NCBI RefSeq assembly: GCF_905475395.1
Contig: NC_058337.1
Location: 68,902,368-68,966,367 of the forward strand
DNA: 64,000 bases
Reading direction: 5' to 3'
Source of the DNA: Chrysoperla carnea
Taxonomy: Eukaryota; Arthropoda; Insecta; Neuroptera; Chrysopidae
Shown here piece after piece: positions 3,196-63,138 of this stretch. The position numbers and the translations under genes are program-made. The notes beneath the pieces are model-generated. The model was not told the DNA's origin. It searched no databases and worked only from the letters and a program-made list of their open reading frames with translations. The stretch's first letter is position 1. Each line of letters begins with the position of its first letter.

Positions 3196-17081
<13,886 letters not shown>

Positions 17082-22566: not shown

Positions 22567-28150
<5,584 letters not shown>

Positions 28151-29677: not shown

Positions 29678-32600
29678 TTATAACGGAATATTTCCATGCT
29701 TTTTCTTTGGATGATGATTTACTGTTTTAGTTTTTAGCAATTCTAAATCGCGTATTAATCGCCATCGTGTTGTACGTGGTTCAATAATATCATCTACATA
29801 ACCTCGGATAGCTGCTGGAAATGGGTTACCAAATGTATCAATATAATGGTTTTCTAACTCAGCAATATTATTTTTTCCACGATATAAAATTGAAACTGCA
29901 CCCTTAGCACCCATTACAGCTACTTCTGCTGTAGGCCATGCATAATTAACATCACCTCCTAAACCTCTTGATAACATTGTAGCATACCCCCCTCCATACG
30001 CTTTTCGAGTGATAACAGACAATTTTGGTACAGTAGCTTCGACTATGGAATAAATCATTTTTGCACCATGTTTAAGTATACCGGAAAATTCTTGCTGTGT
30101 ACCGGATAAAAATCCAGGTACGTCCACAAATGATATAAGTGGAATATTGAAAGAATCACAAAAACTGATAAATCGGGCTGCTTTTAATGAGGCATTGATA
30201 TCCAAGCATCCAGCAACAACCTTTGGTTGGTTGGCAATAATTCCTACTGAACGTCCACCCATACGAGCGAATCCAACAATAATATTTGCTGCAAATCGCG
30301 GCATTATTTCAAAAAATTCTCTTTCATCAATAATTGCGTAAATGATATCATACATGTCATAAGGATCACTTGAATTGAAGGGAATTACTGAATCCAAAAA
30401 TGGAATGTCGCAGTTAACTGGATCTGTACAAGATCTAATAGGAGGAAATTCCTTATTTGATTGTGGCAAATAGCTCAACAAATTACGTATTTGTAGTAAT
30501 GCTTCCACATCATTTTTAAAAGAATTATGAGCAACCCCTGATATTGTTGTATGAACTTTGGGTCCTCCTAGTTCTTCATGAGTGACGTCTTCGTTTGTAG
30601 CGGACTTGAAGAAAGAAGTTTCTTAATTAATAATTTTCAAAAAGTGTTTTTATTTAAGGTAGTACGGGCGCCAAGTCAAGTTTAGACTTGTGGTTGAAAT
30701 TATTATGTAGACGAAAAATAAGAATAAAATTTTTCAATATCTGCCTTGGTTTTCGAAATATCGAAAGCTATATAATTAAACAAGATTTTCAATTTTCGAT
30801 ATTTTAAAAATTACTCCAGATATCGAAAATTTGTATTCTGATTTTTTGTCTTATATTGTCAAGTTATAACATAATTCACCATCAAAATTGAAAACAAATT
30901 TTTTTTACTTGTATCCCCACTACCGTGCTCATACATTCTTAATTAGTCGGGCAGGTCTGTTTTAATTTCCACCGACTAGTTTTGGAGAAATTTATGAAAT
31001 CATGTCATCCATCTACCGTTTTCCCTTAAAACCAATGTTAAATATACCTACCTTTGAAGTCATTTATTTAATTAAATAATCGGACAACCTTCCTAAAATT
31101 TTCAGAATTGATTTAGACTTAGTTCAACTTCATATAAAAAAAAATCAATACTTTTATCCAAAATTGCCCTGGCGCTCGAACATCCTTAAACGATGTTATA
31201 GTAACAAATTGTAATGGATAATCGGTTGAGCATAATTTCAATTAAAAAAAAAGTGTTGTACAAGATTTACAACTATTCAAATCAGGGAATAATAAATAGC
31301 ACACAAGATATGAAATCGATCTCCATGTTAAAATTCATTACAATAACAATCATTCTGTTTTTAGAATCACTTTTGCTATACCTTGGCAACTTCAGGGCCA
31401 GTTACGTATAAATATGAGGTATTATCTACCATAAATGTGAAATCAGTTAATGCCGGTGAATAGGCAGCTCCACCAGCGCATGGTCCCATAATTAACGATA
31501 TCTAAAAAAATTAAATTTTTTATTAATTTGTGTAGTTAGTCTGAATATCATTTTTAGAATGCTTGGTATAAACACGAGCTTTGCGAGCTTCCATTAACAA
31601 TACTAGAATTTTAAACTGAAAGAACTTGTGTATGGAATATAATTTTTATTTTTTAAAAGGGTATATATGATATCGGCATGCAAATCAATAGGTAAACTTT
31701 TATCAAAATGATCTTTCAGTTCGAGCAACACACCGTGAAAATATGAATCGATTTTAAGAATAGAATCCCATAGACGTTTATAAAAAAATTATTGAGTCAA
31801 TTAATTACTAGGCTGTACTGTAGTTTCATTTTGAGGGTGGCCACCTCCGTATTTTGGAGTATAGGGATAACAGTTTTATAATTTGCTCCAATTTTTACTA
31901 CACGGGGAGACTTTTTTACTACACGGGGAGACATGGCTTTGAGTTGAGCTGGAACAAACAATTCATGAACTCTTGTGATTCAAATTTTGCAAAAATTAGG
32001 AAAGTCAATTAGACATTGTTTTATCTCATGGCATAAACTGTTTGTTTATGTCTCAAATACTCGAATATGTTTCATACAAAACTTATGTACTGGGTAAAGA
32101 AAAAGAATTTTTTGAAAATTACCACGATAGAAAAGTACAATACAAGAAATATACAATCGATTCATTACGGATCTTCTAATAAACTTACTAGAAAATTATT
32201 GGTATCTCGATACTTTGTCGTGAGCCTTTAGTATATTATTCGAATAATGTTTATGCATCTGAGTAAACATTGTAAAGCCAGTTTTAAATATATACTGTTT
32301 TTCTACGTTTACTGCTCACATTAAAAAGAAAATTAGGAGCATTGCTATTGCATAAACTTAGGCTATGAAACTCCAGTTTAGCTCATGTGATATGTCTCCT
32401 CAAGTATACCTAGTAAATATTGCGACAAGAAATTATTTAAATCGTCTTATGTACTCCAAAATATAAAAGTGATTACACTCAAAGTGACTTTAACTTCATT
32501 AAATTTATTTAATTAAATTCGTTTATATTTAATGCCAGTTGTTGTTTGGTAAAATTTTACCCAATGTGGCAATTTCGGAAAGGGGTGAAAATTGGAGGCA

Positions 32601-34044
32601 GTATAAAAATACTTGCATATTGTCACTTTGCAAAGATAACGGTAAAATATACACTTATGCAATCGGTACTAATTTTTTCCTATTTTTGTTTAATTTTTCT
32701 TCCGCTACTATTAATGTTGTAATGTGTATGTAGTTTACTATTTGTATATTTCTTACTTGTGGTATAACTCCTGAAGCAACTACATTTCGATGGCCAATGT
32801 CAGAATAACCCATCAAAGACTCTATACCCTCCTGAATACGTGCTCCTCCTGAATCGTTCATTCCAATTATAGGTGCTCCAACCAACAACGCTTGATCCAT
32901 TATTTTCATAATTTTACGTGCATGTACACTTGACAAGCTACCGCCTAACACTGTAAAATCTTGACTAAATAGGTAAATTGGTCGACCATTAACCTTTGCA
33001 TGACCGGTTATTACGGAATCGCCTGTGAACTAAAATGAGAATATTTTGTAAAATTTTATTTTACTTGAAGATTTTATCATTGTGCATACTTTCATGTTTT
33101 CCATTCCAAAATCGGTGCATGTATGTTCCATGAACATGTCATATTCACAGAATGTACCTTCATCACAAAGAAGGTCAATTCGTTCTCTGGCTGTTAACTT
33201 TCCCTAAAAAAGTTTCATAATGCTTTATTTTCCATTTTTGATAGCTTTTGAACATAACTACAGGTTGTTATCATGGTTAGAGCAAACTAATTTTTCTACG
33301 CACATGGTTTAATAGGAAGAAAAAACCGATTATTAAAATGAGTAGTTTTTATTCTTTATATATGAATCAACATTTTTGTCGCATAAAATTATTTATAAAA
33401 TGTGAAATGTAAAAATGCTTTTTTTTTTTTTTAATTCAATTAATTAAATTGTGATCCTTGATATTTCAACATGATATCTCTTTTCATTTTTGAGTTATCG
33501 TAAGGACAGACGGACAGACGGCAGACTGACAAACAGACTTCGGACTATACTTAATATACTATGATATATTTCATACATGGAATAACAAGATGAATTATAC
33601 AAATTAGCACAAAAGTTCAGTGGCCTTTTTTTGCAGTATAGACAAAAGTCTATGAAATAAGCAAGAAAATTACTTATAGCTTAAGTACTCTTAGTTGTAT
33701 GCTGGACATAAATAATCCTGTACATCGTTCTTAGTCAACCTGATGCATTCTTCCTGGTACCACGAAAGACCCAGGCATCTTGAGAGCCCGTGGGCCTTTG
33801 TAGAAACTTTTTTTGAATTGGGAAAAACCTATTAAAAATATATGTAAAAAAATGAAATAAATATTATTACTCTAGCATGTTGAGCGTCGATTTTCTTTTG
33901 ACCGCCACCCAGTAGAGCATGTTTTCTTTTTTCTTTGATTCTTTCTTGAACAGCAATAGTCTGATTTGCACTTAATGAATTATTTGACGAATGACGTGTA
34001 TACTTTAATAACACTTGAAATATTTTTCTATCTAACGCTTTCAT
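29678..34044 (-). CDS. Propionyl-CoA carboxylase beta chain-like, copy B
   Basis: Five exons on the minus strand: 33871-34044, 33090-33203, 32757-33029, 31382-31501 and 29678-30604. They make about 535 residues with no internal stop. The N-terminus [20 protein letters not shown] is basic and suits a mitochondrial presequence. Exons 2-4 have the same lengths as in copy A (114, 273, 120 bp). The last exon joins what are exons 5 and 6 in copy A, so RKAYGG is uninterrupted. The first oxyanion loop is kept ([12 protein letters not shown]). The second reads AYGGGYATM instead of AYGGAYDVM, and VPGFLPG has become VPGFLSG. In exon 3, B differs from C at 8 of 91 residues and from A at 20 (counted by eye). 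The exon 4 donor, gtatag, is weak. The intact frame argues for a functional gene; enzyme activity is unknown. Confidence 0.93.
31502..32756. other. PCCB-B intron 3
   Basis: 1255 bp, against 58 bp in A and 57 bp in C. The extra length implies an insertion, though I see no clear element ends. The frame 32539-32733 is not a gene. Confidence 0.7.
33445..33610 (+). repeat. Dispersed repeat R1, copy 3 (partial), in PCCB-B intron 1
   Basis: gatatctcttttcatttttg, gagttatcg, gacagacggacagacgg and a tatatttcatacatggaata end identify the 3' half of R1. Confidence 0.75.
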
Positions 34045-35039
34045 TTTGAAACTAATTCTATGGCTAAAAATAGTTTAAAACTGAACAAATTATTATTAAG
34101 TGGTAGGAATTAAAATAATTCAAGAAAACAGTATTCCAATACCAAGTTTTATTATTTACTAGGGATGTGTAAATTACTTATTAACATTATTTTTTAGCTA
34201 GGTTTACTTTAAAATAAAATAAACCTACCTAAAAATTAACTAATAAGTTTATTTTTAAACACTACTTAACCCTAAACTCTTTTACTTGTTTTATACATCA
34301 GTTTACTAAATAAGGTTTTGACCTAATTAAAAAAGTAGGTATATTTTCTTTTGTATAGAAAAATTATAAATTATACAGGGTGTTATGTTATCCGTTATTC
34401 GTTTAACTTAAATGCTAGAACTCGAAATGTAAGTTTTATTGATAAAAATTCTTCAAACAAAAAGTTGGGTTCATAAGCGCACATATTAGAGATAGAAAAA
34501 CATTTTAGAAAATCACATAGCGGCAAAAAATGAATGAAATTTGAATGCCGTATAGTGGTCAGAAAGTGGTCACATAGTGGAAATGAAGTCAGAAAATGAA
34601 TATAAACAAGTAAAGTGCTTTTCCGCAAAATTATTTATCAAGTAATCACTTTTCGGAAAAATTTCCTTGTAAATATGGTTATTTACAAAGAAGTTTTTGG
34701 ATTTAAAATTTTCCTCTATTCCTTACTTTTTTCAAAAATTGAATGAAAAATAATCAAAAAAGAAGATTTTTGCATTCAATATTTGTCTTAATTATTCGGT
34801 TCCCAAAATAATATTTCAAACAAATCTATCTTTTACATAAAGACCCATTTTCCAATTGAAGGGTTACTTTTATCTCTTACCAGAAATGAAGCAGCGTGAG
34901 CACTTTATTGAACCTTAAATGTCAGGTTTATTTTAATGTTTGCGTTAGATGTGCGTCCATGAATCTAAAATTTTTTGTTTTTCTCAATAAAAATTACTAT
35001 TCAAGCATATGTAAAACAATGTAGTTAAAATAAACAATT

Positions 35040-35590
35040 CACTGAGTCAATTGTTGAAAGACCTTATATAGACAGTATTGATTACAGCGTTGATAGTTAC
35101 TCTTAGATAGCCACAGTCGTGTATATAACACGAGGGTGGTGCAACACACAAAACTGATACTCCCATATAATACAACCTGTATAATGATCTAAACTAATTA
35201 GGACCCTCATGGATAATGTTTAAAAAAAATGCTACAAACGAAAGTTGTTCATTTTTTTATAAGGAATATTTTTTACATTTAAACTTTTATTCTATCTCTA
35301 ACGGCTTACAAGATATATAGATATATTATCAAGACCCAATTGATCTATGTTGCTCTTTTCGAACTCGACCTCACTTTTTACCTCCTAACTAAGCTTGATA
35401 TCTCTTATCGTTTTTGAGTTATCGTGCTTACGAACAGACCTACGGACAGGCGGACAGACAATCGGATATGAACTAATTAGGTAATTTTATGAACACCTAT
35501 AACAAAATTTTTTTTAAAGCGTTACAAACTTGGGATTAAACTTAGTATACTTTAATTTATTTCATATGTACAGGGTATAAAATCACATTG
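35040..35590 (+). repeat. Dispersed repeat R1, copy 4 (long)
   Basis: It starts near cactgagtcaattgttg and tatagacagtattgatta. It continues with gaaagttgttcatttttt, aagacccaattgatctatg and the ttatcgtgcttacgaacaga block, and ends at atttcatatgtacagggtat. One of three near-complete copies. Confidence 0.85.
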
Positions 35591-38028
35591 AATAAAGAAT
35601 ACCACCAAAATTGAAACAAAATTAAGACAATTGCTGATAAAGTTTTGATTGTTTTGAAAAATAAAATGAAAACAGTATGTAAACAATTCCTTGAAAATTA
35701 CTCTGTTTTCCATTTACCAGAATTTTCGTCTTGGTGCTCATGTTGTTAATTTTTTATAGATTTAAAAGATGTATCTTTTAACATTGGAGCTCCCTGTATG
35801 TCCACAACAGATTTTTCTAAAAAATTAATTACTTTACAAAACAGTTTTAAATGCCAACAAATTTTTTAGAAACAGTTTTAATTCATTAACCAAAATTTTT
35901 ATGAGTGAAAACAATTTTCAAAATACTACATTAATGTCCAACCCCCAAGATTTGCTATATGTTTTTCACGAGTACCTATAACATTTAAGCCACATATCAC
36001 GATTTTTAAAAAAATGTTCTTATAATTCCACAAAAGTTTATTATTATTATATTCAATTAAATATTTCTCGTTTCATAATGTCTCTAGTGCTTAGTAGTTA
36101 GATCAATCAAAAATCAATAATAGTTGATGATGCTCAAAAAATGTTTCCTAGAGAGATTAGGGATTGCGTTTAGATTTAAATTTGACTGTTGGAATTAATT
36201 TCCTTGTGTAGAAACTAGGTGGTAATTCTAAGTAGCTTTTGATAATTTATTCTCTAGATGTATTTTCAATTTAATTCAATCTTTTTTAACCATATATACA
36301 TTGTAAAGAACATGTCATAAAATAGGTTAAGGAAAGAAACAGGAGGAATGCAGCTATGGCTGGCTGTGTTAGGATCTATTTCAGCATTTACCTTTATGCA
36401 AATCTAATGAAAAGGCATGGCTGGCTTTGATTTATAGTTTATTATATAGTTTAATTTATAGTTTTCTATAGCTGTAGTTCATCGAAATCATTTTTCGATT
36501 TGGAATTCTACACCCGTGAAACATAAAATCTCAATTTTGAATAGAAAGAAAAATTTTCATCCGATGCAATTACAACAGTTTATTATAATCCAAAAAAATG
36601 GCATAATAATAAACTAAGATATGGAACGAACTGATATTGCCCATCATAAAACTTTATTATTATTTATTTAGGATTAAAATAATATCTTATAATTATGTTG
36701 TAATTTAATAGGTATTATAATAATTCTACATTTACCGCTTTTTACGAATTAATAAAATGTAATAATTTGAATGACCTCTTAAAATAATGCAACTTTATTT
36801 TTTGATACTAATAAGGTCAGTCGTATAAAAGTAGAACACACAAAATTTTGACTCTCTCGGTTTATCAAAATTAAATCAAATCAAGGTATAGGTATCATGG
36901 GTTTCTTGTTCTTGGGTATGGGTATGGAGGTTGGCGGGCCATGCTCGAGCATTGGGTCTCGAAGCAATGGTTCAGAGCACCTAGCCAAATAGACCCTTGT
37001 ACTCTATCCCCGCTACGCTTTTCAGTGGCTATTATAACCAACTGATGTACTGAAACCCAGGATCTGCCTAGCGCCTTTCTTATTCTTGGTATAATAAAAA
37101 TACATTCGAATTGAGAAACTCTTCCTTTATTTGTTTGAAGTCGGTTAAAAAGAGCTCATTTTTTCAACAACAACAAAAAAACATGAAAAAAACTTACCTT
37201 TTAACTTTTAAATATCTTTCTATATCTATACCTTTTCCAGGTTTATTTAAGAGTTACAAAGTTTATTTAATATTACTAAATTTAATCTCAGATTAACAAA
37301 TCAATTAATAATTATATTTCAGATCCGTCAGCATTATTTCAGAAACTATAATTTGAAAATTATATTTGATTCATTCAATTATATAGAGATCAGTGGTTTC
37401 CTTACATAAAGTTTCAAGTATTTCATAAATATTTATATCATAATATATACTTTACTCTAGCATTTTTTTTTTCTGCCCTACCCGTATCTTCCTTATTCCT
37501 TTATCAAATTCCATGATTCACCCCTCATTTTTAAGCTTATTATGTCTAGGTTTGACGGAAAATACACTCACGGTCTTAAATGTACCCCTTAGGAAAAAAT
37601 ACGCTATAGACAAGTAATTTGAACGGAAAAAAAACAAATTTAAATTAGGCAAACATGTCAGCTTTTACAGATAATATCCTATATTCTAGATATTACTACT
37701 CAAAACATTAGTAGGCAAACATGTTAGTTCTTCAGATGCTCTTTTAATACTCTAGACATAGAATTACTCTTTTTAATACATGTTCTCCTAATATTAATTT
37801 AAGAACTTTTGATTTTTTTCACCACTTTTCTACGAAATGTTTGTTGTTTTTAACCACGGGAATGGTAGCCACGGATAACAGTAACTACGAGAGTGGAATT
37901 CCTCACGGGCCGAGCTAGTTTCTTATTTTATTTCTTATTTATTTCTTATTACCTTTAGTATTTTTGTTAACAAAAAATCTGAAATGAAATTGATAAATGC
38001 TGCGTCAGACAACATGATGCCCTGCTTT

Positions 38029-38186
38029 TTATACATAAAAGTTAAACTTGCGGGCTTTTTGTTTTGAAAATGTGTCGATGACAGTGTCAAAATCAGTTGT
38101 ACTCGAATATCCTGAGCCATAGTTGATCTCAAATACTTTTTGATCAATTTTAATTTTGAAATAGCTCTTTCAGCAATAGTTTTCAC
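38029..38186 (-). pseudogene. Frameshifted hAT transposase C-terminal remnant
   Basis: One frame from 38186 reads TIAERAISKLKLIKKYLRST then MAQD, the hAT C-terminal motif (AERSFSKLKLIKNYLRSTM-like, with the ERSFS serine pair altered). About 65 bases on, a different frame continues with DFDTVIDTFSKQKARKF up to a stop at 38029. This resembles the end of hAT proteins. The frame change and the missing helix between the two parts show that the copy is dead. Confidence 0.8.
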
Positions 38187-38604
38187 GTTATTTTGAATAC
38201 TCTAGATCATTTAAATTGCTCACCTCTAGTGTGTGAAGAGGCTTTTTGTACTGCCACTGTAATTGATATTTTCTGAAATGCAATTTGCAGGCCTGAAATA
38301 CAAATGACTAATCTGAAAAAGAATCTACATTTTTTTAAATAACATAAATAGATTCTAAAATAAATTAGGAAAAGGAAATGGGATCTGTTAAATGGATATC
38401 TGATACAGCTGGTTTATATTATTTGGTCTAAATATGTACAAGGAACGGCATAAGGTCGAGCTTCACCCATCTGATAACTAAATGATAAATAGTTTTTAAG
38501 AAATTTTATTAATTTATAAACACGTCTATCATAGTTTCTACCGAAAAGTGTTCGTGGCTATTTTTTATTAAATTAATTTTAATCAATTTTTTGCAGGCTA
38601 TAAT

Positions 38605-38705
38605 ATTTTAAGCCTATAATCAACAAACGATCAAGACGTTTTCAACGATATCTCATTTATCAAATTATGATAAGTAGTTAAGAAGCTTTGAGGAAACAGA
38701 TAAAA
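38605..38705. repeat. Dispersed repeat R2, copy 2
   Basis: Same ordered words as 5305-5395: acgatcaagacgttttcaac, caaattatgataagta and ggaaacagataaa. Confidence 0.55.
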
Positions 38706-39053
38706 GATTTATAAAAAACTGGGGAGTTTACAGATTTTATTCAATCAAACTCTCTAAAAAACTTACAGAAATTAATAAATTAAATTAATACAGAATTAAA
38801 TTAAAATAGTATTTATTTTGATAAAATTAGTTATTACTTAAAACTAAAAGTTTTTAATTTACAAAATTTAGTTTTTTTAAGTTGATAAGCATTTCAATCC
38901 CTTTAAGTAAGTTCCCCTACGGGCAACAACAGTTGTAAATGGGACACTGTTGTTACCATTTCCAGACTTTGTGAAGCGTTCAAGCTAGGAATGTTTAGAT
39001 TCAAGTAAGTTACTTCGGTTGCTCAAATCATAAGGATTTTTTTTTTCATTTAA

Positions 39054-39345
39054 GTTAGGTTAGGTTAGGTTATATTGGCTGCCCACGAAGGACACACTTA
39101 GGCTATAGAGCCCATTGTGATGCCATATATGTGTTTTACCACCTTTCAGCTGATAATTTCATTTATCAACTATTCAATTTTAGAGGCTGAGTGCACCTCT
39201 TTCATGCGTATACCATGCACTACACCAGCCCATGACAACTATTAATTAAATTAATTTTGTTGCGACAGCGGGAATCGAACCCGCTACCCTAAGCATACCG
39301 CGGACGGAATTGGTTACGCCTTAACCAACTGAGCTAATAGGGCGA
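39054..39345 (-). mobile_element. tRNA-derived SINE with TTAGG-type tail
   Basis: On the minus strand the head at 39345 downward reads tattagctcagttggttaag (A box TAGCTCAGTTGG), then gggttcgattcccgc (B box GGTTCGATTCC), as in a tRNA promoter. A unique body of about 200 bp follows. The tail at 39054-39072 is about four units of CCTAA (TTAGG on the plus strand). The flanks carry a near-perfect direct repeat, ttttttttcatttaag on the left and tttttttcatttag on the right, which is the target-site duplication. The tRNA part lacks a good acceptor stem, so it is not a tRNA gene. Confidence 0.88.
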
Positions 39346-39930
39346 CTTTTTTTCATTTAGTACCGAGTATTTTCGCAGTTGGTTACAAAAAAAGTATCAA
39401 CAGTGAATTTATTGAGTCTAGCCATTCACTTACTATCTATGATGAAAATGATATATCTTAACAAATGAGGTCAATTGTTTACATTGGAGTAGAAATCCTT
39501 GTTTTAAAACTTCCCGTAAAAATAGAAGCTCTTCTGTTAAAGCATAATATTTCCAGAGTAGTTATTACTCTGTATATTTTAGTAATTTTGAAGGAATACA
39601 CGGGTTAGTATGCAACAATAGTAAGTAATGGGTGGTACTATTACATGGAAAAATTTAACTTTTGTGAATTTGCTGTTAAGGCCTTGAGAGAGCAACCGTT
39701 ATGAATTACTTAAGCTTAGACAAGTAAAAAAATTATATTTTATTAATTAAGCTCCAGCTTCTATGAAGGACTGCTTGGACACATTAGCACTATTTGTGGA
39801 CCATAATATAAAAATTGTAGTTCGGGGAATTGTTGGTACAAGTACAACTAGCGCTTATCCAATTTTTTGTTTGTGTTAAGGGTCGTTTTTTGTGAATCTT
39901 TTTCAAACTTAATTAAAAATTAATAAAAAT

Positions 39931-42900
39931 TTACATCGGAATAATTCCATGTTTTTTGGTCGGAAGCTTCACTTTTTTACTTACTAATAATTCTAAATCA
40001 CGAATTAATCGCCAGCGTGTTGTTCTTGGCTCAATAATATCGTCTATATAGCCAAGAACAGCTGCAGGAAACGGATTACTAAATTTTTTAATATAGTCAT
40101 TTTCCATTTCAGTCATATTATCGTTTCCACGATACAGTACTGAAACAGCGCCTTTACTACCCATTACAGCTACTTCTGCCGTGGGCCATCCATAGGTAAT
40201 ATCGCTTTGTGATGACATTGTAGCAAACCCACCTCCATATGCTTTTCGAGTGATAACAGACAATTTTGGTACAGTGGCTTCGAATATGGAATATAACATT
40301 TTTGCACCATGTTTAATTATACCGGAAAATTCTTGCTGTGTACCAGCTAAAAATCCAGGTATATCTACAAATGATACCAGTGGAATATTGAACGAATCAC
40401 AAAATCTTATAAAACGAGAAGCTTTTAGCGACGAATTAATATCTAAACATCCAGCAGCAACTTTTGGTTGGTTGGCAAATATTCCTACAGTACGTCCACC
40501 TAAACGAGCGAATCCAACAATAATATTTGATGCATATCGCGGCATTATTTCAAAAAATTCTTTTTCATCAACAATTGCGTAAATTATATCATACATGTCA
40601 TAAGGATCACTTGCATTATACGGAATTACTGAATCCAAAAATGGAACATCATCGTCAACGGGATCTGTACAAATTCTAAGAGGGGGAGGTTCTTTATTTG
40701 ATTGTGGTAAATAGCTCAGTAAATTTCGTACTTGAAGTATTGCTTCCACATCATTTTTAAAAGAATTATGGGCTACTCCTGACATTGTTGTATGAACTTT
40801 GGAACCTCCTAGTTCGTCATGGGTGACATCCTCGTTTGTAACCGACTGTAAAAAATGTTGTAACGTGTGTTTAGAAAAAATAATGTCTCTTACAAAGAAA
40901 TTGAGCAACAATTATAGTAAGGCAGGCAATGAATCCAAAAATTGTTTCGGCGCTTGCTTGCCCGTCAATATTTAAAAGTAGTGCAAAATACACCAAGCAA
41001 ACAACCAAATATGGCATACTGTTTGAGAAAGTTGCTTTTCGATACAATAAGAATTTCTTATGATGTCTATTTTCAATTATGATGTCTAGTTCTTTGTTCG
41101 TCAAACCAGAAAATGAAATGTCAAAACAGGTAAAAGTACTCTTGGCTGACATTTTGGAAGAAGCGGTAAGATAATTTTTGTCAATTATATTTTTTGTCAA
41201 TTTAAAATTGCTTACCTAAGACTCAAAAGAAATTTGTATGCTTATATATTGAAATCTTTCCATTCTCGTTGAAGTGTTCTCAACAATGTTGGAATTGCCT
41301 TAAAAAGTTAATTTTATGGGCGCTACTTTTTTGTTAATATTTCTCTGTTCCAATCCTTAATTATACCATGTATATATTAAATATACATAGTATATTATGT
41401 TTAGTCCCAAGTTAGTAACGCTTAAAAATATTGATGCTACGAAAAAAATTTTGGTATAGGTGTTCATAAAATCATCTAATTAGTCCATTTTCGGTTGTCC
41501 GTACGTCTGCCCATCCGTCCGTCCGTGAACACGATAACTCAAAAACGAAAAAAGATATGACGCTGAAACTCACTCAGGACGTAAAAAGTGAGGGCGAGTT
41601 CGTAAAAGAGCAACACAGGTCAATTGGGTCTTGGGTCCGTAGGACCCATCTTGTAAACCGTTAGAGATAGAACAAAAGTTTAAATGTAAAAAATGTTCCT
41701 TATCAAAAAATAAACAACTTTTGTTTGAAACAATTTTGGAAACATCACTGTTTACTCACAAGGGCATCCATTAGATTCAAATTTTATAGTATGTATTAAT
41801 ATAGAATTATCAGTTATCAGAGTAATCAACATTGTCTATACATGGTATTTCAACAATTAACTCAATTGTTTGTTTTCACTTGTTTTATTATTTTATTAGT
41901 ACACAATAAATTGTTATTTAAAAATGTTTAAATTTCAAAATTGGATTGATTTGAAATTTTATGGCTCAATATTACCGATGTTGAAATTTCTATTACCCGG
42001 ATTCTATCCACACTATCTTTAACCTATATAAACTAAGCGAGTAATTAGCCTTTTTTCAAAATTTTAAAATAGATAAAAAACAATTCCTTCTCTCAGATTC
42101 AAAATGTCTTACAAGAGTATTTTGTATTTTGATCTCCATTATATCATTTTCAGAATTGACGAACAAAGAATTATGACATTGAAATTGGAAATAGAATCGA
42201 AGTCATGCGTATGTTAAAAACAATAATGAAAGTATATACGAATTCGTATCTAATTCTTTAATAATGTGCAATTTAATCGATTGAATTCGAAGTAGGATTT
42301 AAAGTCATACCTGACTCAATATTTAACCAAAAAAACTGAAATTTAGTACTTTAGATTAAAGTTCCAATTGAATCCTATAAAAAAGAGTATTGAATTGGTA
42401 TTCTGTATTTTGTATTCTATATTTATTACTAGTTTTCAATAAATAATAAATAAAAAAATTCAACTCTTTTTACTTCCAATTCAGGTTTCAATTCTTTCAT
42501 TCCCATTTAAAGTTTTGAATGGACTTTAATATGCACTAACATCTCCTGTAAAGAAGTATTTACCTTGATTTGGGGTCATCTTAGAATTGACTATACTGAG
42601 GCATGTATTTTCAACAAAATTATTTTTAGTTTTTTACATTTTCTGGTACATATCATGACCTTCAAAGCCGTTAGGTATTATGCGAAGCTTTATTTTTTGG
42701 CTTCATTATTGCCTAGTAGTTCGGCTTCGTCTACATATTTGAGAGTTAATTATGCGTCATAAATAAGAAATAAATTTAAATCTTTCCCATTTCTGCCTAC
42801 ATAAAATCATCTCATAGATAATAGAATTGAACTTATCTTTAGCTTACCTTAATAACATCAGGACCTGTTACATACAAATATGACGTATCTTCTACCATGA

Positions 42901-45568
42901 ATGTAAAATCAGTTAAGGCTGGCGAATAAGCAGCTCCGCCTGCGCATGGCCCCATAATTAGCGATATCTAAAAATTCAATTAATTTAATATTTTTATATT
43001 GGTCATCATTTTTTTGTAATTTACTTGTGGTATAAATCCTGAAGCAAGTACATTTCGAGTACAAATGTCAGAATAACCAATCAAAGACTCTATACCCTCC
43101 TGAATACGTGCTCCTCCCGAATCGTTCAATCCAATGATAGGTGCTCCAACTAACAATGCTTGATCCATTATTTTCGTAATTTTTCGTGCATGTACACTTG
43201 ACAAGCTACCTCCTAACACTGTAAAATCTTGGCTAAATAGGTAAACTGGTCGACCATTAACCTTTGCATGACCAGTTATTACGGAATCTCCTGTGAACTA
43301 AAATGATAATATTTTGTGAAATTTTATTTTCTTTAAGCTTTTATCATTGTGCATACTTTCATGTTTTCCATTCCAAAATCGGTGCATGTGTGTTCCATGA
43401 ACATGTCATATTCACTGAATGTACCTTCATCACAAAAAACTTGAATTCGTTCTCTAGCTGTTAACTTCCCCTGAAAATTATTTCGATTATTTTTTATTTT
43501 TGAAGTTTCAATGATTTTCAGCTTTTAACTAGCTTATCCAATTAATTTTTCATTTGATTGATTGATATCTGTCAATATCGATCACCCCACGCATTACAAT
43601 TAATATTATCATCCACTTTTTAGTGCAATCATGTGTGTTTTTTAATTTTTTAAACTATAATTTATTATTAAAAGTTTTTAAATTAAACAGTTTTTAGTCA
43701 ACCCATTGCAAAAATATTTGTCAACTTTTTAAGTGGCTGGGGGATGTCCGGCCTTAATTCGTATCTTATAGCTATCTATCCATCTTGTAGGTAGAAATTC
43801 CCACACCGTGTCGCAATTGAAGCACTTATTTTGAAACGAAGATACGTTTGTACATAATTCAATACCATTAGGCGTAAAATTTTTAAAATTTGGGTCTAGG
43901 ACTGCTGTAAAAGTTAGGTACCTCCCGGTGTGAACTTCTTTCTACGTGGCGATATTCAAAATTTTCGAATTTCATGGTAAAAATCTAAAACATAACAATT
44001 TTTATCGCCACCGCCTTATCCCACCTAATAAACGAAAATAACACCCCCCTAACATACTCTGGTATTTTTGTTTGTTTTTTTTTTCAGCTTTTTTGATGTT
44101 TGTTTTCTTCACCTTTTTCAATGTTTTGATGCGGAGTTAAGACCGCTGGCTACCAACGACGACTACTAGCACGACGATTGCTTGTATATTCTAAACCGAT
44201 ACCAAGACTAAATTGTGAACTCCGTGGCCAAAGGCAAAGATCTAATTGTCCAAATAATGAAAATAGATTTTGGTGGGCGGGGTTAAAGAGTTGAAAAAGA
44301 TGGCATACTATAGATTTATTTTCAAACTTAGCATTGTCCTCATTGCAAGTGCTATGGTGGAGGATATAGTAAGGGTAAGATAGGTAAAGGCTGTAACGCG
44401 GTACTTTAAACTAAATCAATGATTCTCTAAATGAATCATCGATTCTTGGAGAGAATCGCAGAACGTTGATTTTGAGAAAGTCATAAAAATAGGCTGAATA
44501 GTTCAGCCATTCTACGTGTTGAATCAGATTACCTCCAACATTTAGATTGTGAAAATCTAATATATCAATTCGCAAACCAAAAACGGCGAAATTTTTTTAA
44601 AGTACCCCAAAGTAATACTTAAGATAAATCCGGCCCTGGGCGCACCAATGAATTAAATAAATAACTATTTTATAGTAATTTTCAAGGGAATTTCTAAATT
44701 TGGTATTATTTTAATCTGAAAATAGATTGGTTTATCATTGCATGCAGTTATTAAATTAATTTACAAGCACCATTAAGATGTATATTAAGATTATTAGTGT
44801 AATTTATGTAATCGATTCATAACAATTTTCGTTCTGAATTCAAAATAAAATTCAACTAAATTCATCATTTTTCTTTAAAATTCAATGTATATACACAATT
44901 TTTTTTAAATTCACCCCTCGTCTCTCATGAACCTGAATGTTTATGATTGTGCCCCCTTTGGGGATTACTTTTTTTTGTTAAAACCACCCTCATTATATAT
45001 CACGTTTAAAAATTTATCGTGTTCAATTGTCATAAAAATTTTTTTGCCCCGACCCTCATTTAGCCACGTATTTTTCTCAAGGCTAAAACTCATGTGGAGT
45101 AAGAGACTTTCGTGAAATTAAATGTAGATATTGAAAAAAATCACTACACACAAATAATCTGCTCAAACATTATATTTTTTGGAGTATTAATTACTCATTT
45201 CTGCTCGTTTATCTTGAAAACATTCTCTTAAACCAAATTATATTAGCTTTGAAAAATTATTATTGTTCTTAATATCATATTGCCATGCTATGGTACATTA
45301 TTATAACTTTTATCAATAAATGAAAAAAAAAATTGTCAAAGCGATTAAAAAGTAAAATTAATAAAACTATTAAAATAAATATTATTACTCTAGCATGTTG
45401 AGCGTCGATTTTCTTTTGACCACCACCTAGTAAAGCATCTTTTCTTTTTTCTTTAATTCTTTCTTGAACTGCAATAGTATGATTTACACTTGATGAAACG
45501 TTTGATGAATTCAACTGACGTGTATTTTTTACTAATAATTGAAAAACTCTTTTATTTAATGGTTTCAT
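39931..45568 (-). CDS. Propionyl-CoA carboxylase beta chain-like, copy C
   Basis: Five exons on the minus strand: 45389-45568, 43357-43470, 43025-43297, 42848-42967 and 39931-40845. They make about 533 residues with no internal stop. The structure is as in copy B, including the joined last exon. The presequence [20 protein letters not shown] resembles that of B. The first oxyanion loop is [12 protein letters not shown]. The second is AYGGGFATM, and the following segment is three residues shorter than in B ([11 protein letters not shown]). PGFLPG has become PGFLAG. The protein ends KHGIIPM rather than KHGNIPL. In exon 4, C and B differ at 4 of 40 residues. The frame is open and the splice sites are good, so it is probably expressed. 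Substrate and activity cannot be told from sequence alone. Confidence 0.93.
40894..41152 (-). CDS. Possible nested first exon: two-helix membrane protein in PCCB-C intron 4
   Basis: An open frame starts [16 protein letters not shown] at 41152 (an upstream ATG exists at 41200). It has a soluble, partly basic stretch ([19 protein letters not shown]) and then two hydrophobic segments, [17 protein letters not shown] and [16 protein letters not shown], split by a short polar loop. A good donor, gtaaga, follows at once at 40893. Codons look less AT-biased than intron sequence. I do not recognise the family. The layout (soluble start, helical hairpin) is loosely like the N-terminus of PIG-H, but I have no motif to prove it. 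It could also be the relic of a retrocopied or transposed gene. No second exon was found. Confidence 0.35.
41340..41885 (-). repeat. Dispersed repeat R1, copy 5 (long), in PCCB-C intron 4
   Basis: Minus-strand reading gives acaattgagttaattgttga, aataccatgtatagac, the aacaaaagttgtttatttt and acccaattgacctgtg blocks, and a ttatcgtgttcacggacgg block, ending in atacatggtataa. Confidence 0.85.
43298..43356 (-). other. PCCB-C intron 2, nearly the same as PCCB-B intron 2
   Basis: 59 bp against 60 bp at 33030-33089, with most bases shared (for example attttatcattgtgcatac next to the donor). Intron 2 of copy A has no such likeness. Confidence 0.9.
43471..45388. other. PCCB-C intron 1
   Basis: 1918 bp. 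A GC-richer part at 43720-44640 is probably an old insertion. No gene is seen; the frame 44927-45115 has no domain. Confidence 0.6.

Positions 45569-54265: not shown

Positions 54266-63138
<8,873 letters not shown>

Follow-up and report, generated by a model that had tools for sequence, protein, structure and literature searches.

Tandem PCCB paralogues of the lacewing Chrysoperla carnea carry pocket residues resembling those of medium- and long-chain acyl-CoA carboxylases

Bacterial acyl-CoA carboxylases and the animal propionyl-CoA carboxylase (PCC) are the closest described relatives of the genes considered here, three PCCB-like genes (copies A, B and C) on contig NC_058337.1 of the lacewing Chrysoperla carnea (assembly GCF_905475395.1, positions 68,902,368 to 68,966,367 of the forward strand; this whole stretch of 64,000 nucleotides is called the window below). 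A passage of PMC5187497 describes two specificity positions in the medium-chain acyl-CoA carboxylase MccB, where Ala423 replaces the Asp of PccB and Gly161 replaces a bulky Phe, and states that every beta subunit known to act on substrates of at most four carbons has that Phe. The same passage states that the Asp-to-Ala change is said to let PccB bind butyryl-CoA, and that the pocket is built across two subunits. It numbers the PccB Asp 421, while PDB titles give 422. In an excerpt of PMC7835884, position 422 affects acetyl versus propionyl use in both Streptomyces coelicolor and T. fusca, the effect is tied to Asp-to-Ile changes, and S. coelicolor AccB is reported to have Ile there. For AccD4, an excerpt of PMC4064979 gives pks13 as the neighbour of accD4, and says that the protein is thought to need AccA3, AccD5 and AccE5.

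In this setting, copy A is a canonical PCCB, and copies B and C have lost both the Asp and the Phe. Judged by alignment, the change in the loop around the Asp is one half of an apparent two-site pocket switch matching the medium- and long-chain acyl-CoA carboxylases.

The two pocket positions

Copy A carries the loop GGAYDVM (residues 436-442, with Ala438 and Asp440; 22861..22881, minus strand), aligned with PccB 418-424, with coordinates from the gene models. Copy B has GGGYATM (residues 431-437; 29975..29995, minus strand), and copy C has GGGFATM (residues 433-439; 40216..40236, minus strand) followed by a three-residue deletion. An initial annotation of this DNA had given the same three loops, which are now read from full gene models; it gave the range 29990..40240, outside which the loop of A lies. 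A 13-residue stretch of all three copies aligns to PccB without gaps, and in the numbering of PDB 1xnv, ITRKAFGGAYDVM is residues 412-424, which puts the Asp at 422 and the Gly-Ala pair at 419-420. The Ala of B and C falls at 422, in agreement with the initial annotation's identification of the loop and of the lost Asp as PccB Asp422. The changes common to B and C, in copy A numbering, are A438G, D440A and V441T, and Thr441 is unique to B and C within the 137-sequence alignment described below.

The equivalent of the lost Asp in human PCCB is D440 by alignment, and a structure of the human D440Y PCC exists (8zv5). Engineered S. coelicolor PccB structures are available with changes at 422 to Ala (3IBB, D422A), Ile (1XNW, D422I), Val (3IAV, D422V), Leu (3IB9, D422L) and Asn (3MFM). 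Asp422 is not required for the name PCC, since the PCC beta subunit 3n6r has Val at that position; 1vrg, annotated as a PCC beta subunit, has Ile, and the methylmalonyl-CoA carboxyltransferase 1on3 has Leu. A third variant of the pocket is seen in the acyl-CoA carboxylase beta subunit of PDB 9j0c, with the loop GGGYGVM, Val at the Phe160 position and Gly at 422.

The second site is the acyl-pocket Phe, PccB Phe160, a change that went unremarked in the initial annotation. This residue is Phe180 in copy A (codon TTC, 25417..25419), Gly175 in copy B (GGC, 32793..32795) and Cys177 in copy C (TGT, 43061..43063), all on the minus strand. MccB Gly161 (chain index 167 in 5INF, an offset of 6, as for Ala423) aligns opposite PccB Phe160, as does the Gly of 9t97_D4a. 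Copy A has the Phe described for subunits acting on four carbons or less, and B and C do not. Ala at the 422 position is present in B, C and MccB. Gly at the MccB 161 position is present in B, and C has Cys, as do 9 other aligned sequences with Gly438 and Ala440 (the GG-A class). Since Phe, Cys and Gly codons are one base apart, Cys is a plausible ancestral state at column 180 of B and C.

We surveyed carboxyltransferases to see how these columns go together. A scan of GTDB contigs with the pattern K-A-[YF]-G-G-G-[YF]-A-x-M returned at least 118 stretches; among the matches listed, 118 of 118 have RKA[YF]GGGYAVM in a conserved carboxyltransferase context, and the 80 with a named source all come from actinomycetes. 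In one Corynebacterium locus (L015) and one Mycolicibacterium locus (L021), pks13 adjoins the gene, scoring 2344.8 and 2590.8 bits with NCBIfam NF040607, whose cut-off is 2100. Within one actinomycete order, 13 of 61 genomes have the Gly438 and Ala440 pattern, and none of the same 61 has the pattern with Ala440 and without Gly438 (Ala438 with Ala440). Two of the 15 places found in that order (L171 and L172) carry GGGYATM, identical to the copy B loop, and the seven of the 15 that were read all have a small residue at the Phe position (Gly in six, Ala in one).

The 137-sequence alignment comprised A, B and C, human PCCB, the Roseobacter and Methylorubrum PCC, a bacterial pccB from the lacewing assembly (L001, discussed below), the pattern loci, plasmid loci and loci of seven actinomycete genomes. 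Where Ala438 is combined with Asp, Ile, Val or Cys at 440, Phe180 is present in 30 of 30 sequences (13 with Asp, including A and human, 15 with Ile, and one each with Val and Cys). Where Gly438 is combined with Ala440, all 101 sequences, B and C included, have a small residue at column 180 (Gly in 49, Ser in 18, Val in 17, Cys in 10 and Ala in 7). One sequence with Ala438 and Leu440 (L166, loop AFGDAYLSL) has His at column 180, and five MCC-like sequences (resembling methylcrotonyl-CoA carboxylase, MCC) have Gly438, Tyr440 and Phe at column 180. A comparison of the two classes used 37 representatives below 75% identity (22 versus 15), among which the only perfect class separators are columns 180, 438 and 440. 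B and C show the GG-A state in each of these columns; among the 22 columns that rank next in discriminating power, each copy has newly gained it at only two. The three-column switch in B and C therefore looks like more than chance. Columns 438 and 440 were built into the pattern that collected most of the GG-A sequences. Column 180 played no part in that selection and thus provides the independent result.

Gene structure, origin and selection

All three genes are complete, split by introns and on the minus strand of the window. Copy A (22567..28150, 539 aa, open reading through GT-AG introns) has six exons, 28150-27962, 25831-25718, 25653-25381, 25322-25203, 24044-23442 and 22887-22567. Copy B (29678..34044, 535 aa) has five, 34044-33871, 33203-33090, 33029-32757, 31501-31382 and 30604-29678, and copy C (39931..45568, 533 aa) likewise five, 45568-45389, 43470-43357, 43297-43025, 42967-42848 and 40845-39931. 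Every intron is GT-AG and in phase 0, and there are no stop codons, frameshifts or broken splice sites. Four intron positions are common to the three copies; copy A has one extra intron (22888-23441), exactly before AYGGAYDVM, which B and C do not have, reflecting either loss in B/C or gain in A. The last exons match PF01039 (Carboxyl_trans) at 372.7 bits in B (E 3.5e-111) and 363.6 bits in C (E 2e-108), against a curated cut-off of 22.3, and the PCAGGA and SGGARIQEG stretches are intact in both.

In a FastTree phylogeny (LG, gamma), B and C are sisters with support of 1.0, join A at 0.994, and join human, the only other animal included, at 1.0. B and C group with animal PCCB rather than with the actinomycete GG-A class. 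Together with the shared introns, this grouping shows that B and C arose when the animal gene was duplicated and that their pocket converged on the bacterial one; we reject a horizontal transfer from actinomycetes on the same grounds. The three loop changes, being common to B and C, most simply predate the split between these sisters, as the initial annotation had also proposed.

B and C are under purifying selection. Over the whole coding sequence, the ratio of nonsynonymous to synonymous rates (dN/dS) is 0.144 (NG86) or 0.076 (maximum likelihood, ML) for A-B, 0.175 (NG86) or 0.078 (ML) for A-C, and 0.213 (NG86), 0.117 (YN00) or 0.156 (ML) for B-C, where dS is 0.42-0.68; within a 38-codon loop region, the B-C ratio is 0.22-0.27. 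The intact frames and splice sites, together with these ratios, rule out pseudogenes. Tree distances to human (A 0.457, B 0.640, C 0.666) indicate that the B/C pair has evolved faster than A, and identity to human PCCB over aligned columns is 74% for A and 66% for each of B and C. At 35 of the 378 positions where A matches human, B and C share a different residue. Near-invariant columns are altered at 7 of 96 positions in B, 9 of 96 in C and 2 of 96 in A; among the changes are Phe224Tyr and Pro399 to Ser or Ala in both B and C, and Tyr439Phe and Ala454Gly in C.

Substrate range of copies B and C

Since Gly420 and Ala422 are the state of MccB and of the D4 chain, and the pocket Phe is also lost, a shift toward longer chains is predicted. 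We consider it rather probable, from these residues, that B or C accepts acyl-CoAs beyond C4 better than A does, and the core idea of the initial annotation, that the two copies act on another acyl-CoA, gains inferential support to that degree. B and C would be functional, tandem-duplicated carboxyltransferase subunits of the PCCB type with an enlarged acyl pocket, in which Phe to Gly or Cys in the N-terminal half, and Ala to Gly and Asp to Ala in the C-terminal half, would have the effect that they have in the MccB/AccD4 class. Such a pocket would permit carboxylation, at the alpha carbon, of substrates that exceed propionyl-CoA in length, from butyryl- to medium-chain acyl-CoAs and possibly still longer or branched ones. 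The products would be alkylmalonyl-CoAs, which might most naturally be guessed to serve as extender units in making branched lipids or secretions. The full proposal is that the lacewing acquired a medium- or long-chain acyl-CoA carboxylase of its own through tandem duplication of mitochondrial PCCB and convergence on the MccB/AccD4 state at just the three pocket positions that define the class, and that an animal could thereby make lipids or secretions with ethyl or longer branches. We advance it tentatively, with confidence falling somewhat short of even.

B and C would presumably assemble with a single host PCCA-like subunit, as MccB uses a housekeeping alpha subunit. PF18140 (PCCA) matches two places in the genome, one of them inside a bacterial-type stretch of chromosome 1; a duplicated alpha subunit is therefore unlikely, and there is probably one host PCCA, inferred to belong to the host, which B and C would have to share. 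Besides the three copies, PF01039 matches two further host genes in the genome, which we read as acetyl-CoA carboxylase (L005 and L007) and MCC (L006), and at C1:139.40 Mb a pccB of bacterial type. The first 30 residues of B and C each contain five Arg/Lys, with one Asp/Glu in B and none in C; such basic N-termini are compatible with a mitochondrial presequence, although they do not prove one, and on this composition B and C may work in mitochondria.

Several observations weigh against the proposal of a longer-chain carboxylase. According to an excerpt of PMC13118682, wild-type S. coelicolor PCC already uses butyryl-CoA, and the excerpt of PMC7835884 describes only a modest shift in kinetics from a single change at the 422 position, D427I in T. 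fusca. The excerpt of PMC4064979 reports that, with palmitoyl-CoA, the activity of an AccA3-AccD4 preparation was at least 500-fold below that of ACCases 5 and 6. Outside the three columns, log-odds stay on the PCC side (B -140.0, C -143.8, A -169.5, human -95.5), and B and C keep the PCC residue at other class-separating columns such as 137, 175, 250 and 256. Copy C has Cys rather than Gly, and its deletion comes directly after the loop. The changes at near-invariant sites in both copies could reflect relaxed constraint. Finally, every GG-A sequence of known source comes from an actinomycete, and the pattern that retrieved most of the class fixed 438 and 440.

Some of these points would fit as well if B and C were still propionyl-CoA carboxylases of the same or a slightly broader short-chain range, kept for dosage or tissue-specific expression, with pocket changes of minor effect. 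Asp422 is replaced by Val, Ile and Leu in 3n6r, 1vrg and 1on3, the T. fusca change had its modest effect, B and C are PCC-like outside the pocket, and S. coelicolor ACC2, in the excerpt of PMC13118682, indicates that beta paralogues can be evenly promiscuous for C2-C4. We nevertheless judge this explanation unlikely, if the strongest of the alternatives, as Phe is present in 30 of 30 Ala438-type sequences (with Asp, Ile, Val or Cys at 440) and in none of the 101 with Gly438 and Ala440, and both copies lost it, to different small residues, under persisting purifying selection.

It is less likely still that B and C are losing or have lost catalysis, or that they form mixed hexamers with A in which they are beta subunits with a structural or regulatory role, with the pocket changes being neutral decay. 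The excess of near-invariant changes over copy A and the deletion in C speak for decay, but the genes are unbroken at a B-C dS of about 0.4-0.7 with dN/dS of 0.12-0.21, PCAGGA and SGGARIQEG are kept, and the changes fall on specificity positions and reach a known functional state. Loss of the oxyanion hole through the Ala-to-Gly change can be set aside, as all 118 pattern loci among the matches listed have Gly-Gly. Nor does the deletion appear to spoil the fold of C: in AlphaFold2 models of the last exons, which are half-proteins of a pocket formed across two subunits, confidence is low at 205-212 in C, yet B, without the deletion, is also low at 205-210, so the model says nothing against C.

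A shift toward acetyl-CoA, or a supply of methylmalonyl-CoA for methyl-branched hydrocarbons, is very improbable, even with the known influence of position 422 on acetyl versus propionyl use (PMC7835884, as excerpted), since the Ile of S. coelicolor AccB is found with Phe180 and Ala438 in 15 of 15 Ile-type sequences and B and C carry Ala; we rejected the acetyl-CoA shift as the leading explanation for this reason. The acetyl-versus-propionyl interpretation in the initial annotation belongs with the Asp-to-Ile changes, while Gly420 with Ala422 is the MccB/D4 state, leaving that annotation right on observation and partly right on interpretation. Loss of the Phe would enlarge the pocket, when a smaller substrate would call for the reverse, and from a wider pocket one would expect side chains that exceed methyl in length. 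An exon-by-exon search of the genome gave no match to methylmalonyl-CoA mutase (PF01642) or the B12-binding domain (PF02310), and methylmalonyl-CoA may therefore be used in some way other than conversion to succinyl-CoA; the genome does have a cobalamin adenosyltransferase domain (PF01923), at C3:33.59 Mb, which makes the absence of the mutase uncertain. If real, that absence would leave methylmalonyl-CoA without its usual exit to succinyl-CoA, which is suggestive only.

Genomic setting and comparison with known systems

The bacterial-type pccB (L001, C1:139397346-139401665) is an intronless frame with the loop GGAYIVM, less than 0.6 Mb from the end of chromosome 1. Beside it are open reading frames (ORFs) resembling, by eye, a biotin carboxylase piece and transposases, and a PCCA BT domain lies about 10 kb off (L127, C1:139387923). 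This stretch, which to us has a Rickettsiales look, is either a symbiont insertion or a misassembled piece of a symbiont. Within the window, the neighbours of the PCCB copies, at 55734-57580 (minus strand) and 14958-17078 (plus strand), are L27-PDZ and guanylate-kinase (MAGUK) exons and a kinase-like stretch; the latter resembles a DYRK-type protein kinase by eye, with no Pfam match in the two pieces scanned. The window ORFs looked at included no apparent gene for a metabolic partner. A tRNA-like Rfam match at 59371-59442 (plus strand, 39.8 bits), where ARAGORN makes no call, and a second such stretch seen by eye at about 39260-39345 are possibly both tRNA-derived short interspersed elements.

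The chemistry is known and its place is new: the specificity switch is known from bacteria, and here it is found in animal PCCB copies. Our listing of the open-access literature, which is partial and no proof of absence, held no report of an insect PCCB duplication with a pocket change and none of an animal medium-chain acyl-CoA carboxylase. If our proposal is right, nature has repeated in an animal enzyme a change of specificity that crystal structures had revealed in Streptomyces. The three adjacent copies would make the two-site rule (422 and 160) directly testable by comparison, and the insect would have an animal source of alkylmalonyl-CoA and thus of unusual branched building blocks.

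Compared with animal mitochondrial PCCB (human 7YBU, copy A), B and C are alike in descent, length and most active-site residues, and share four introns with A, but Phe180, Ala438 and Asp440 are missing from them, as is the final intron of copy A. Copy C is additionally without three residues after the loop. AccD4, of the mycobacterial and corynebacterial long-chain acyl-CoA carboxylase (the D4 chain in 9T97 and 9YX1), has a GGGYA loop, as in B, and a small residue at the Phe position (Gly in 9t97_D4a, Ser in Corynebacterium L015), as in both B and C. The AccD4 gene adjoins pks13, whereas no polyketide synthase was seen near the insect copies among window ORFs of at least 100 aa inspected by eye and five neighbouring pieces scanned with Pfam.

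MccB of Streptomyces ambofaciens has the loop GGGYAVM (5INF, 5ING), and its Gly-Gly pair and Ala at the 422 position are common to B and C; its Gly at the Phe160 position is matched in B, with Cys in C. MccB is a bacterial antibiotic-cluster gene product that was crystallised with hexanoyl-CoA, whereas B and C group with animal PCCB; it also has a long helix (33-46) and a flexible lid (452-477), and the likeness of B and C to it is drawn from the pocket positions. The actinomycete loci L171 and L172, with a GGGYATM loop and Gly at the Phe position, have the same states as copy B.

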